Of a stretch of DNA of 64,000 nucleotides, positions 453-6,243 are shown piece after piece. How positions within the stretch are numbered: the first letter of the stretch is position 1; each line of letters begins with the position of its first letter. The notes beneath the pieces are model-generated. The model made no database searches. It had not been told where the DNA came from and worked only from the letters and a program-made list of their open reading frames with translations. The translations under genes were made by a program, and so were the position numbers. This DNA comes from Treponema sp. (GTDB lineage Bacteria; Spirochaetota; Spirochaetia; Treponematales; Treponemataceae), in contig JAILEY010000038.1 in the NCBI GenBank assembly GCA_024687165.1, positions 1-64,000 on the forward strand. Reading direction: 5' to 3'.

Positions 453-1643
453 TTAAAGTCCCTTTGCCCAGATGTAGGTACTCATGTAAGGATCAGGTTT
501 TACTACGCCATCGCTGCACCAAATTTCGTCAATGAGACTGTCGGAATTTATGCGTCCCATGCGTACCTGTTTCTTGAGGTGCTGGTTTTCGCCGTCTATT
601 GTTACAAGACCTTCTGGTGCATTTATAGATAAGTTTTTTGCTGCCATTCGGACATCTTCTACGTTGAAAGTTCCGGCTTTTTCACATGCTGCAGCCCACA
701 ATTTTACTGCAATGTATCCGGCTTCCATAGGGTCTCCTATAACTCTGTTTTCTCCGTAGAGTTTTTTGTAATTTGAAACGAATATTTGATTTTCTGCGGT
801 AGATATAGTCTGAAGATAGCTCCACGAAACATAATGTCCTTTAAGAAATTCTTCTCCTATATAGTCAATTTCATTTTCTGAAATTGAGAAACTCATTACA
901 GGAATTTCTGAAGCTGTGATTCCTGAACGTTTTAATTGTTCGAAGAAAGCTTTGTTTGAATTTCCGTTAAGGGTATTCAGTATGACATCAGGTTTTGTTC
1001 TTTTTATCTGGTTTATGATATGAACGAAATCTTTACAGTCCATGCTGACATAACGTTCACCGACGCAATTTCCCTTTAAATGTGAAAGGTATGAGTTAAT
1101 TATATTGCCTGCTGTTCGAGGAAATACGTAATCAGAGCCGATGATGAACATTTTTTTTCCAAAGTTTTTATAGCAGAATTCTACTGCAGGAACTACCTGT
1201 TGATTTGGGGCTGCTCCCATGTACATGATGTTTGTGCTTGCCTCAAGACCTTCGTATTGCAGCGGGTACCATAAAAGGCCGAATATATCTGGATTTTCTA
1301 CTACCTGCTTTACTTTTTTGCGTGAAGCGGATGTCCAGCAGCCGAATATTGTTGCAACTTTCTCATTCGTAAGCATGGCGTGGGCTGCTTCTGCAAATTT
1401 TTCAGGATCGCTTTCTCCATCCATCTGAATAATTTCTATTTTTCGGCCGAGAACTCCGCCTGAAGCATTTATTTCTTCTATTGCCATTCGTTCTGCTTCA
1501 CAAACAGGAATTTCACTTTCTGCCATTGGACCTGTCAGCGAATGAAGAAGACCTACTTTTATTGTCTGTACTTTGTTTTCTTTTTTACAACCGGTGAAGA
1601 GCAGTGCAAATACTGCAGCTATGAACAATATATTTTTTTTCAT
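453..1643 (-). CDS. ABC-transporter-type substrate-binding lipoprotein, urea/amide (UrtA/FmdD/AmiC-like) family
   Basis: Lipobox LLFTGC; KVGLLHSLTGPMAESE, INASGGVLGRKIEIIQMDGESDPEKFAEAA, GLLWYPLQYEGLE are typical of UrtA-like periplasmic binding proteins. Confidence 0.8.
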   Translation of the reverse strand: MKKNILFIAAVFALLFTGCKKENKVQTIKVGLLHSLTGPMAESEIPVCEAERMAIEEINASGGVLGRKIEIIQMDGESDPEKFAEAAHAMLTNEKVATIFGCWTSASRKKVKQVVENPDIFGLLWYPLQYEGLEASTNIMYMGAAPNQQVVPAVEFCYKNFGKKMFIIGSDYVFPRTAGNIINSYLSHLKGNCVGERYVSMDCKDFVHIINQIKRTKPDVILNTLNGNSNKAFFEQLKRSGITASEIPVMSFSISENEIDYIGEEFLKGHYVSWSYLQTISTAENQIFVSNYKKLYGENRVIGDPMEAGYIAVKLWAAACEKAGTFNVEDVRMAAKNLSINAPEGLVTIDGENQHLKKQVRMGRINSDSLIDEIWCSDGVVKPDPYMSTYIWAKGL

Positions 1644-4600
1644 CAGTTTTCCTCCATTACAACTTCATATGTAATCATCCGGCCTTTACCTTTTATGTCA
1701 CATTCGATTGGTCCGTTGAATTTTATGTCTGTATCCTTGAGTTTTTCGTAAACTGCCTGAGACACTCTTATTCCTCCTGGTGAACATGCTGATTCCATGC
1801 GGCTTGCGACGTTTACTGTGTTACCCCATACATCATAAGTGAATTTAGTTTTACCGATAACGCCTGCACTTACAGGTCCTCTGTTAAGACCTATTCTCAT
1901 GTTAAATTTTATGCTTGAATTCATGTTGTAGTCTTTGAGGTCTCGGTACATTCCTTTTGCAAATTCTACCATTGTGTATGCGTGGTTTTCATTAGGTTCA
2001 GGAAGTCCGCATGCAGCCATGTATGCGTCTCCGATTGTTTTTATTTTTTCAACTCCCATTCGTCTGGCTCTTTCATCAAAGCGGCTGAAAAGGTCGTTGA
2101 GTGCGTATACTATTTCTTTTGCTGAATGTTCGCTTGAAATATTAGTAAAGCTTACTAAGTCAGAGAAGAGCATTGTTGCATCGGTAAAGCTTTCACCAAT
2201 TGCGCGAACTTCGTTTTTGAGTTCTGATGCAATTTTTTCAGGGAGAATTGCACGAATCAGGTGATCAGATTTTTCCTTTTCAACGGCAAGTTCTTTTGTG
2301 CGTTCTTTTACAAGTCCTTCAAGTCTTATGTTTTCCTGTTTTACAGCTCGTTCTTTGAGGTAGAAAATCAATATAATAGAAAAAAGAACAACTAAAGTTG
2401 TGACTATCCAGAACCATTTTGTCTGCCAGATGTATGGTTTTTGAACAAAAAGCATTGTTTCTGCGTTGTCTGATATGATTCCGTCACCGTTTATTGCAGA
2501 TACGAGGAATGTATGTTTTCCTGGCTTCAGATTTGTAAAGGAAACGGATCTTTCTGTGCTTGGTGCAGATAAATCGTCGTCAAACCCTGTAAGCTGGTGT
2601 GTAAAAAGAATGCGTTCCGGGGCATCAAAACTTAGACCTGTGTATTTTATGTCTACTCGTTTTGTTCCAGGCTTGAGCTCTATTACGGAATCAAATTTTG
2701 TGTATTCCAGATTGTCTATTCTTATGCTTTCTATGCAGATTAATGGTTTTACATGATTTGATTTTGCCTTTACAGGATTATATATTGCTACACCATCTAC
2801 CATAGGAAACCACAGATTTCCTTCTTTATCACACATGCTTACGGCTGTTGAGGTTGCTCCGTCTGAATCAAGTCCATCGTTTTTGTTATAGAACTTTGGA
2901 ACCATCATTTCAATTTTTCCGCAGCTTACATCTGTAAGTTTTTCATATGAAATGGAAGAAACTCCGTAATTACTTGTCATCCAGATGTTGCCATGTTTGT
3001 CCGGTAAAATCTGAAAAACAGAATCTGTCCCAAGTCCATGTTCTGCACGTATTGTTTCAAAATGCTCAGGGAGATCTTTTTGCGAACTGTCGTACCCAGG
3101 ACATCGTGAAAGACCGCTGCTTGTACAGATCCAGTAATCTCCTTTTGCATCCTGAGAAATCTTAAATATTACGTTACCTGCAAGGCCGTTTTCTGTTGTA
3201 ATTTTCTTTATAATCTTTTCATTGTACATCAGGAATATGCCGCCGCCGTCTGTTCCAATCCAGAAAATATCGTTTTTGTCACGGAAAAGGCACATTACGT
3301 ATTCGTTCTCAAGACCGTCCATGAGCTTGTAGTTTTTGATTATTCCGTTTTTATGAATTATGCTTAATCCTGTTGTTGTACCGACGTAAAGTTCTCCGTT
3401 AACGCCTTCTATTGCTACGCGGACCTTGTTTCCTGCAAGTCCTTCATCTGTACTCCAGCTTGTAATTTCTTCTGTAAACGGATTATATCGTAACTGACCG
3501 GGCTTTTTGTAACAGCTGACAAGAATGTCGCCGTTTTCTGTAACACCAATATGGCGGATTCTTATATCCGTGGTAAATTCTGTAAGTGTATTTTCTATCT
3601 GTTGTCCATTTTTATAGCAGAATACGCCTGTATCAGTTCCAACCCAAACACTTCCGTCTTTACCTTCTGCTATGGCATTTGTCGTTATTCCTGTGTGAAA
3701 AATCTTAAAGTGGCTTCGTGTCATTTTTCCGATGCCGTTTCTGTCTGTGGCAATCCAGATGTTTCCTTCACGGTCAGAAATAATTCTGTTTATTTTTGAA
3801 TTTTTTATGCCTGTTTTTTCGCAGATGTAAAATTTTCCGTTGCTGTATACTGCAAGACCTGCTTCTGTTCCAATCCAGATATTTCCATCCTGATTCTGGA
3901 AAATAGCTGTAACTGGGGTATTGTCAAGCATAGTTTCGGTATGAACAGAAGTTGCAATGCCGTTTTTAATTACAATAAGGCCTGCATTGTCCGTACCGAC
4001 CCAGATATTTCCGTCTTTGTCCTGGCAAATTTCCTTTACAGTATAACTGCCGAATTTGTCCATGGAAGGAATTGTGCGGAAAAGTCCGTCTTTATAAACA
4101 AAAAGCCCTTTATCGTTTGCTGTTGTAAGCCAGACCTGACCTTCATTGTCACACATAAGCTGCGTGGAAATAACACCCTTTGAAACTGCTCCTGCTTCAA
4201 ACTGCGGATTAATAAGATGACGGCTCTTTGTCATGTAAACAACACCGCCTGCAGTTCCTACCCAGACATTTTTTTCGTGATCTTCTACAATTGCACGGAT
4301 TGAATTGTTAGGTAGTCCGTTCTGGATTGTAAAAGTCATGTTTCCTTCAGGCTGAATAACCTGGATTCCTTCGTCATTGGATCCAACCCACATGTTGCCT
4401 GATTTATCTTCCATAACAACGCGTACTGAAGCGAAAGTAAAATCATTGTTTTTGCCGCGTCTAACTGTTTTAAATGAAATTCCGTCAAAACGGACAAGCC
4501 CTTCGTAGGTACCTATATTGATATAGCCGTCATGAGTTTGAATTATATCTGTGGCGGTTGTCCCTGTAAGACCTCCAAAGGATCTCCACTGCTGGTAAAC

Positions 4601-4690
4601 GTAATTGTCAAAAAAGGAGGACTGTGCCGCAAGATGTACATAAAATATCAGTCCTGCTATTAATAATGCGAACTGTTTTTTCATATACAT
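1643..4690 (-). CDS. Two-component-regulator-type beta-propeller receptor with Y_Y_Y domain, TM helix and C-terminal class III adenylate/guanylate cyclase domain
   Basis: Signal peptide; many repeats of the form DKDGNIWVGTDNAGL; C-terminal TMLFSDLVSFTNIS...KIKTIGDAYMAACGLP...YDVWGNTVNVASRMES. Confidence 0.85.
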   Translation of the reverse strand: MYMKKQFALLIAGLIFYVHLAAQSSFFDNYVYQQWRSFGGLTGTTATDIIQTHDGYINIGTYEGLVRFDGISFKTVRRGKNNDFTFASVRVVMEDKSGNMWVGSNDEGIQVIQPEGNMTFTIQNGLPNNSIRAIVEDHEKNVWVGTAGGVVYMTKSRHLINPQFEAGAVSKGVISTQLMCDNEGQVWLTTANDKGLFVYKDGLFRTIPSMDKFGSYTVKEICQDKDGNIWVGTDNAGLIVIKNGIATSVHTETMLDNTPVTAIFQNQDGNIWIGTEAGLAVYSNGKFYICEKTGIKNSKINRIISDREGNIWIATDRNGIGKMTRSHFKIFHTGITTNAIAEGKDGSVWVGTDTGVFCYKNGQQIENTLTEFTTDIRIRHIGVTENGDILVSCYKKPGQLRYNPFTEEITSWSTDEGLAGNKVRVAIEGVNGELYVGTTTGLSIIHKNGIIKNYKLMDGLENEYVMCLFRDKNDIFWIGTDGGGIFLMYNEKIIKKITTENGLAGNVIFKISQDAKGDYWICTSSGLSRCPGYDSSQKDLPEHFETIRAEHGLGTDSVFQILPDKHGNIWMTSNYGVSSISYEKLTDVSCGKIEMMVPKFYNKNDGLDSDGATSTAVSMCDKEGNLWFPMVDGVAIYNPVKAKSNHVKPLICIESIRIDNLEYTKFDSVIELKPGTKRVDIKYTGLSFDAPERILFTHQLTGFDDDLSAPSTERSVSFTNLKPGKHTFLVSAINGDGIISDNAETMLFVQKPYIWQTKWFWIVTTLVVLFSIILIFYLKERAVKQENIRLEGLVKERTKELAVEKEKSDHLIRAILPEKIASELKNEVRAIGESFTDATMLFSDLVSFTNISSEHSAKEIVYALNDLFSRFDERARRMGVEKIKTIGDAYMAACGLPEPNENHAYTMVEFAKGMYRDLKDYNMNSSIKFNMRIGLNRGPVSAGVIGKTKFTYDVWGNTVNVASRMESACSPGGIRVSQAVYEKLKDTDIKFNGPIECDIKGKGRMITYEVVMEEN

Positions 4691-5355: not shown

Positions 5356-6243
5356 ATGAAAGTTAGATTTATTTTGTTTTTTCTGATGATTGTAAAAAGT
5401 GTATTTGCCCAGGAGTATGGTCTTGTTCTTTCCGGTGGCGGCGGAAAAGGAGCTTATGAAGTCGGCGTGTGGAAGGCTCTTAAGGAGTACGGAATTGCTG
5501 ATAAAGTTACTGTTATTTCCGGGACTTCTGTCGGCGGATTAAATGCGGCTCTTTTTTCCTGTGAGGAGATTGAATCGATTGAAAAAATCTGGCTTGAAAA
5601 AGTTCCTCTAAAACTTAAAACTTCAGAAAGTCTTATTTCGCAGGATGGGCTTCTTGAAATTATAAATACAGTTCATCTGGAAAAATTAAAGCCGTATCAT
5701 TTTCCTCATGTCATTGTAACAACTGTAAGAAACCGATTTAAAGCTGCAAAAGCTGTAACAGGTGGCAGAGGCGATTATTCTCATAGATTTCGTTTGAATG
5801 ATGAAGATGATATCAGTGAAATTAAAAGGATGCTGCTTGCAACAAGTGCGTTTCCTGTAATTTGTTCTCCAGTCAAACTTAAAGATGGTCATAAATATAT
5901 TGACGGCGGCGGAAATTTTATGGGCGGTGATAACGTTCCTTACAGTCCTGTCCTTGATTTTTATCCGTCTGTGAAAAATCTTATTGTTGTTTACCTCGAT
6001 GATAATCCAAAGAAAAAGCTTAGAATCAAAAAAATAAAATATGATGATTATGATATTATCGAAATAATCCCGACAATAAAAATGTCATTATTTGCTCTTG
6101 AAGGCACCGTTAATTTTACTCAGGAAAGAATAAAGCTTTTGATTCAGCAGGGCTATGAGGATACAGTTGAAGTTCTTAAAAAACATAATTCTGTTAACGG
6201 TGTAAAGCTTTATCCTGTTTCTTCATACTGGTTTGAAGACTGA
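5356..6243 (+). CDS. Patatin-like phospholipase with N-terminal signal peptide
   Basis: LVLSGGGGKGAYEVGVWKAL oxyanion motif, GTSVGG (GXSXG), YIDGGG (DGG); N-terminal MKVRFILFFLMIVKSVFAQ. Confidence 0.88.
   Translation: MKVRFILFFLMIVKSVFAQEYGLVLSGGGGKGAYEVGVWKALKEYGIADKVTVISGTSVGGLNAALFSCEEIESIEKIWLEKVPLKLKTSESLISQDGLLEIINTVHLEKLKPYHFPHVIVTTVRNRFKAAKAVTGGRGDYSHRFRLNDEDDISEIKRMLLATSAFPVICSPVKLKDGHKYIDGGGNFMGGDNVPYSPVLDFYPSVKNLIVVYLDDNPKKKLRIKKIKYDDYDIIEIIPTIKMSLFALEGTVNFTQERIKLLIQQGYEDTVEVLKKHNSVNGVKLYPVSSYWFED

Follow-up and report, generated by a model that had tools for sequence, protein, structure and literature searches.

The current analysis concerns two adjoining genes of a Treponema sp., one encoding a membrane-bound adenylate cyclase with a periplasmic beta-propeller and the other a UrtA-like binding lipoprotein, the pairing of which is not due to chance. 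We consider it fairly probable that their products form a two-protein receptor whose cytoplasmic cAMP would report periplasmic urea, for which we infer docking, urea binding, and cAMP production from the sequences. A sequence-only reading of the same DNA had proposed a one-component cAMP sensing system; the sensing-system part of this proposal is supported, whereas the term "one-component" is too loose for what would be a two-protein receptor. The following features lie within the window, i.e. the whole stretch of 64,000 nucleotides that was analysed (contig JAILEY010000038.1, GenBank assembly GCA_024687165.1):

1643..4690, minus strand: propeller adenylate cyclase gene, 1015 aa (ORF; Pfam; sequence matches to solved structures; AlphaFold model; Foldseek)
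4625..4690, minus strand: putative cyclase signal peptide, aa 1-22 (hydrophobic N-terminus by sequence reading; model helix 2-21)
2756..4618, minus strand: periplasmic beta-propeller region with Reg_prop repeats, aa about 25-645 (Pfam Reg_prop, 157 bits; BT4663/BT3049-like fold)
2453..2629, minus strand: Y_Y_Y domain, aa 688-746 (Pfam, E=1.2e-9, 38 bits)
2351..2419, minus strand: single transmembrane helix, aa about 758-780 (hydrophobic stretch by sequence reading; model helix 758-800)
2213..2350, minus strand: coiled-coil/helical transducer, aa 781-826 (model helices 758-800, 805-815, and 818-826; confidence low at 790-813)
1664..2194, minus strand: class III cyclase catalytic domain (Pfam Guanylate_cyc, 192 bits)
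1641..1645, minus strand: TGATG overlap, in which the cyclase stop and lipoprotein start share base 1643 (sequence)
453..1643, minus strand: UrtA-like binding lipoprotein gene, 396 aa (ORF; Peripla_BP_5; TIGR03407; closest fold 8TG1)
1587..1643, minus strand: lipoprotein signal with lipobox LFTGC and predicted lipidated Cys19 (sequence; Cys19 conserved without exception among 38 aligned homologues)
477..1562, minus strand: Venus-flytrap domain, predicted to bind urea (residue mapping onto P. marinus UrtA)

Both ORFs are intact, and the propeller cyclase gene, the UrtA-like lipoprotein gene, and the TGATG overlap between them are confirmed by the ORFs, the sequence, and Pfam, as originally described. 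A Shine-Dalgarno-like GGAGG is located at 1651-1655, inside the 3' end of the cyclase gene, and a promoter/terminator scan yielded counts no higher than the chance level. The contig begins at base 1 of the window, which leaves only 452 bases beyond the lipoprotein gene on the downstream side. The window therefore gives no basis in this direction for the earlier remark that no ABC genes sit beside the lipoprotein; the remark was tested instead genome-wide, as described below, and across relatives.

The cyclase exhibits all of the features of a Reg_prop/Y_Y_Y receptor, namely the repeats, the Y_Y_Y domain, the transmembrane helix, and a BT4663-like fold. Its AlphaFold model (pLDDT 85.6) matches the periplasmic domain of BT4663 over about 787 columns in Foldseek. 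Neither the histidine kinase nor the response regulator output of an HTCS is present, as Pfam shows a cyclase output only. Among 74 homologues, the metal residues D844 and D888, the transition-state residues N960 and R964, and the adenine residues K882 and D953, which select ATP over GTP, are all invariant. The predicted catalytic domain has an intact ATP-type class III adenylate cyclase active site, in keeping with the Lys and Asp that had previously been read as fitting ATP, and the alignment also accounts for both of the metal-binding Asp residues upon which the earlier proposal depended. Candidate cAMP effectors are encoded in the form of cNMP-binding proteins.

The lipoprotein scores 473 bits to Pfam Peripla_BP_5, and its nearest solved structure is the urea-binding protein 8TG1 (58% identity). 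Mapping onto P. marinus UrtA places its urea pocket at W103, S105, Y126, Q129, E131, Y172, F174, N226, and S253, such that 9/9 urea-contact residues of crystallised UrtA are found in the window lipoprotein, and these are invariant in 52 paired homologues. Its TIGR03407 score of 471.6 bits falls just below the 492.75 cut-off (other paired copies score 474-536 bits and transporter-type UrtA 526-624), and because of this score the protein is filed as UrtA-like and not as a transporter UrtA. The lipoproteins paired with a cyclase group in a single clade whose sister is the UrtA found in urtABCDE-urease operons, and the lipoprotein is a duplicate of the urea-transporter UrtA. An AmiC-like amide ligand was rejected, since the AmiC pocket is mismatched at 5/9 positions (W/Y, Q/P, F/Y, N/V, and S/T). 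Thus, of the original "UrtA/AmiC-like" description only the UrtA part stands, and the suggested ligand class of amides, urea, or amino acids can be narrowed, with urea as the leading candidate according to the complete pocket and the nearest structure. On the lipoprotein surface, seven columns are invariant in 13 transporter-type UrtAs and rare in paired copies, whereas random controls give about 2 with a maximum of 8; as a signature of lost permease docking, this is only suggestive.

Conservation of the pair was surveyed in 196 genomes of the genus, counting lipoprotein homologues at a minimum of 54% identity. Close homologues lie directly behind an orthologous cyclase in 100/129 cases, found in 99/196 genomes, while 20/129 precede UrtB and 9/129 are located elsewhere, mostly at contig edges. 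Of the 106 orthologous cyclases in this survey, three are truly without the lipoprotein. In an independent collection, the pair is present in 77/77 readable loci, most of them from ruminant-foregut treponemes; the adjacency that the sequence-only reading proposed to look for in other Treponema genomes is evident in both datasets. The pair was also found in two sister genera, and its carriers include the cultured, sequenced T. ruminis RU1, T. saccharophilum DSM 2985, and T. zioleckii kT3. No third conserved neighbour gene exists across 40 neighbourhoods, and a larger conserved operon was rejected, as these neighbourhoods share only the two genes. The lipoprotein is never adjacent to paralogous propeller cyclases (<53% identity) among about 45 listed, nor were SBP partners for such cyclases found in 20 loci.

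Given its descent from UrtA and its unchanged pocket, the lipoprotein could conceivably be an ordinary urea-uptake component for a permease encoded elsewhere, its co-transcription with the cyclase being a mere regulatory convenience, and 21/99 carriers do have an UrtB gene too. However, a genome-wide search of the window's genome (97% complete, 87 contigs) found no UrtB-like gene, and hence neither the partner permeases/ATPases of UrtABCDE nor the urtBCDE-type permease that would have contradicted the original proposal; urease is absent from this genome as well. Both UrtB and urease are missing in 78/99 carriers, including 31/36 high-quality ones, and where carriers have urtBCDE, that operon mostly includes a further UrtA of its own. 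The window's genome encodes a single Peripla_BP_5 protein, and its sole BPD_transp_2 gene adjoins an ATPase ORF containing a pair of ATP-binding cassettes, a locus that by sequence reading looks sugar-importer-like. With no UrtB in this genome and a second UrtA in most urtBCDE carriers, uptake via a distant permease was rejected as distinctly improbable. Because the usual route for importing and breaking down urea is missing in most carriers, the pair probably serves them for sensing urea and not for consuming it. It is also rather unlikely that the pair is a binding-protein-coupled cyclase sensor for some urea-like ligand (a short amide, formamide, carbamate, or guanidine-type compound) other than urea. 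AmiC, which is closely related in fold, does bind aliphatic amides, and urea binding by the lipoprotein is a prediction from its residues, but the conservation of all nine urea contacts, five of which differ in AmiC, and the identity of the nearest structure both argue for urea itself.

Two counterpoints to a two-protein receptor are that the propeller might have a ligand of its own and that the SBP could pair with another partner. The propeller's ligand could be, for instance, an oligosaccharide, much as BT4663 senses heparin fragments, in which case the lipoprotein would belong to the same pathway and make no contact with the cyclase. Homologous Bacteroides propeller ectodomains bind glycans directly, according to the BT4663 entry titles, and no lipoprotein partner accompanies the paralogous propeller cyclases. 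Nevertheless, we regard this scenario as unlikely, as the adjacency is strictly one-to-one and the lipoprotein co-diverges with the propeller (r 0.58-0.79 versus propeller segments of 180 residues, compared to r about 0.4 versus the catalytic domain). Furthermore, the fraction of pair-specific propeller residues retained is 0.36 in L116 and 0.27 in L118, two cyclases without an SBP, whereas it is at least 0.82 in every paired cyclase; the C-terminal pair-specific residues of L116 and L118 are kept at 0.88. In these two cyclases, decay has apparently been selective for those propeller residues that distinguish paired cyclases, although they are the only two informative SBP losses and the SBP-less state of L118 may be ancestral and not a loss. 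A third cyclase, L117 of genome G189, has lost the lipoprotein and still retains 0.91 of these propeller residues, which may reflect a recent loss; no convincing remnant of the lipoprotein gene is found at this locus. Lastly, the two genes could be functionally meaningless neighbours hitchhiking within one genus, as all carriers found are confined to one family of Spirochaetota. This is strongly disfavoured and very improbable, since the pair survives at 52% protein identity amid flanks that are unrelated on both sides, and no other neighbour does.

For the two-protein receptor, we propose that the UrtA-derived lipoprotein, tethered in the periplasm via Cys19, would close on urea and, in this closed state, dock on the ectodomain of the single-pass cyclase, with its BT4663-like double propeller and Y_Y_Y domain. 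The transmembrane helix and coiled coil would relay docking to the dimeric cyclase and change its activity, either up or down. Cytoplasmic cAMP would then act upon cyclic-nucleotide-binding effectors and presumably upon downstream targets of theirs. Urea is abundant in ruminants, where it is recycled into the rumen and fed as a nitrogen supplement. The chances seem evenly balanced that foregut treponemes without an Urt/urease route read urea as a host or diet signal via the propeller-docked lipoprotein and cAMP. If non-ureolytic spirochetes do have such a dedicated urea-to-cAMP receptor, urea in ruminants would be a signal as well as a nutrient.

When compared with known systems, the lipoprotein resembles the UrtA of UrtABCDE (TIGR03407; PDB 8HIC, 7S6E, 7S6F, and 8TG1) in fold, sequence, and its nine urea contacts, but it is coupled to a cyclase, without a permease/ATPase partner, and belongs to its own lower-scoring clade (471-536 vs 526-624 bits). 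AmiC-AmiR likewise employs an UrtA-related binding protein as a sensor and not a transporter, although AmiC resides in the cytoplasm, has amides as its ligands, and controls antitermination. The Bacteroides hybrid two-component sensors BT4663, BT3049, and BT4673 share the periplasmic double propeller, Y_Y_Y domain, and single transmembrane helix, whereas their output is a kinase in place of the class III cyclase and binding-lipoprotein partner found here. To our knowledge, Reg_prop/Y_Y_Y propellers have so far been recognized as direct glycan sensors; if the proposal is true, they also act as read-outs of binding proteins. We found no paper in the open-licence literature linking Reg_prop with adenylate cyclase or describing a binding-protein-linked urea-sensing cyclase, and the proposed receptor would be, as far as we found, the first to drive a cyclase by means of a propeller that reads a binding protein. 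In LuxP-LuxQ, ChvE-VirA, and TorT-TorS, a periplasmic binding protein presents its ligand to a membrane receptor that signals to a histidine kinase; the same ligand presentation is proposed here, but with a propeller receptor and a cyclase output. In the natriuretic peptide receptor guanylate cyclase NPR-A/GC-A, the ectodomain has the type I periplasmic-binding-protein fold and drives, through a single transmembrane helix, a class III cyclase. That receptor is one fused chain with a peptide ligand and uses GTP, whereas the present system comprises two genes, an intervening propeller, a proposed small ligand, and ATP as the predicted substrate, and would, if true, represent a split bacterial counterpart of the animal binding-protein-fold receptor cyclases.

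The sequence-only reading had described a propeller adenylate cyclase gene that overlaps a binding lipoprotein gene through TGATG, and both genes proved to be intact ORFs on the minus strand of the window, sharing base 1643:

1643..4690, minus strand: cyclase gene, intact ORF of 1015 aa with Reg_prop repeats, Y_Y_Y and Guanylate_cyc (Pfam)
453..1643, minus strand: lipoprotein gene, intact ORF of 396 aa with Peripla_BP_5 (473 bits)
1643, minus strand: TGATG overlap, base common to the cyclase stop and the lipoprotein start (sequence)
1651-1655: GGAGG (sequence)

Also present in the cyclase are a signal peptide and a single TM helix. The overlap, together with GGAGG, is a layout suited to translational coupling. 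Window base 1 is the contig start, which leaves the downstream side of the lipoprotein gene almost unseen, and the absence of transporter genes therefore had to be checked elsewhere. Near this contig end, a GC-rich stretch in AT-rich surroundings (346-430, a single occurrence in the window) could represent a repeated genomic element at which the assembly broke off. On the other side, a patatin-like phospholipase gene with a signal peptide (5356-6243) diverges from the cyclase gene and adjoins a small lipoprotein-like ORF, for which a Pfam search gave no match.

The predicted adjacency is kept in relatives. Among 129 lipoprotein homologues (at least 54% identity) in 196 genomes of the genus, 100 (99 genomes) immediately follow a cyclase orthologue in the same orientation, and 20 directly precede UrtB, the urea transporter permease. 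Nine are neither by coordinates, although four of these are also cyclase-paired at contig edges upon inspection (G086, G111, G097, G026), G034 is classed as paired too, three are contig-edge or fragment cases (G128, G185, G170) and G106 holds a further lipoprotein copy before a hybrid histidine kinase. In the latter locus (L265, G106:C27, 259-4311), where the upstream side of the UrtA-like copy is at the contig start, this copy directly precedes the kinase (with HisKA, HATPase, receiver and Hpt domains) as well as an SBP_bac_1 protein; the arrangement may apply the binding-protein/receptor idea to a kinase. Conversely, of 106 cyclase orthologues (at least 53% identity), 100 have the lipoprotein as their partner, three sit at contig edges (G128, G185, G155) and three truly lack it (G017, G189, G035), with no homologue above 54% identity elsewhere in those genomes. 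The G189 cyclase (L117) is flanked by the same genes as the G001 locus (L113), but with the lipoprotein gene cleanly absent in G189. Among the paralogous propeller cyclases listed (roughly 45, <53% identity), none has this lipoprotein next to it. Across 40 fetched neighbourhoods, the pair comprises the only recurring genes, while the flanks vary. In some genomes the paired cyclase has another propeller cyclase as its neighbour, arranged in tandem (L108, 4542-10715) or divergently (L089, 562-8531), and in G026 a CHASE2-cyclase gene is convergent with the pair, placing two cyclases side by side (L264, 3958-6129). In a separate collection of named genomes (80 loci), the lipoprotein gene comes next in 77/77 readable loci, including one broken cyclase frame and one truncated lipoprotein. 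These carriers, among them Treponema ruminis RU1, T. saccharophilum DSM 2985 and T. zioleckii kT3, are mostly from forestomachs of goat, sheep, cattle, yak, deer and buffalo. The pair is also present in sister genera (G519, G693); outside the family, cyclase relatives have no lipoprotein partner.

The lipoprotein had been described as UrtA/AmiC-like, of which the UrtA part holds. Cyclase-paired lipoproteins form one clade whose sister group is the UrtA of urtABCDE operons, some running directly into urease genes. Nine residues surround urea in crystallised Prochlorococcus UrtA (W120, S122, Y141, Q144, E146, Y190, F192, N246, S274; PMC10392092). Their equivalents in the window lipoprotein (W103, S105, Y126, Q129, E131, Y172, F174, N226, S253) match at all nine positions and do not vary among 52 paired and 10 transporter copies, whereas AmiC differs at five. 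The AlphaFold model (pLDDT 90) best matches 8TG1, a urea-binding protein of Caldicellulosiruptor (58% identical). Against the UrtA profile the lipoprotein scores 471.6, slightly under the cut-off of 492.75, versus 526-624 for transporter-type UrtAs; judged by sequence, its pocket is unchanged and it is altered elsewhere. Urea permease genes elsewhere would have pointed to transport, but the window's genome (97% complete, 87 contigs) contains no UrtB, no urease and no second Peripla_BP_5 protein. The lipoprotein is therefore probably not a transporter component in this genome. Both UrtB and urease are missing from 78/99 carriers (31/36 of high quality), and carriers having the urea transporter mostly encode a second UrtA inside that operon.

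As for the cyclase, the ATP-type Lys and Asp and both metal Asp proposed from the sequence are present and, like the catalytic Asn and Arg, invariant in an alignment of 74 homologues. Its model resembles the ectodomain of the Bacteroides heparin sensor BT4663 over ~787 columns and, C-terminally, class III cyclases. A cAMP circuit is plausible in this organism because its genome encodes seven class III cyclase domains along with four proteins that together hold six cNMP-binding domains.

Three observations suggest indirectly that the two proteins work together. The lipoprotein-less cyclases of G017 (nested in the paired clade) and G035 (basal), older or more diverged, keep 0.36 and 0.27 of the propeller residues specific to paired cyclases, versus no less than 0.82 for every one of 49 paired cyclases scored leave-one-out; in the C-terminal half, both retain 0.88 of the pair-specific residues. 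The G189 cyclase keeps 0.91 of the propeller residues, and its lipoprotein loss is perhaps recent. Candidate positions are 29, 163, 164, 167, 172, 192, 324, 402, 423 and 608, including a loop at 154-174. Furthermore, in 73 pairs lipoprotein divergence tracks the propellers (r 0.58-0.79, 180-residue segments) more closely than the catalytic domain (r ~0.4). In addition, the paired cyclases are essentially one lineage. All of these are correlations to which shared ancestry contributes, and loss events are few.

Presumably, urea would close the tethered lipoprotein, which could then dock onto the propeller ectodomain; the Y_Y_Y-TM-coiled-coil rod would in turn shift the cyclase dimer and change cAMP levels, up or down. 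The rumen epithelium is the site where host urea enters. A slight ecological hint is the enrichment of Treponema at this epithelium in one lamb study (PMC7046558). Our search of open-licence papers found none joining Reg_prop with adenylate cyclase. Receptors coupled to binding proteins are known, as are propeller receptors; the novelty here would lie in bringing the two together on a cyclase that is paired with a urea protein.
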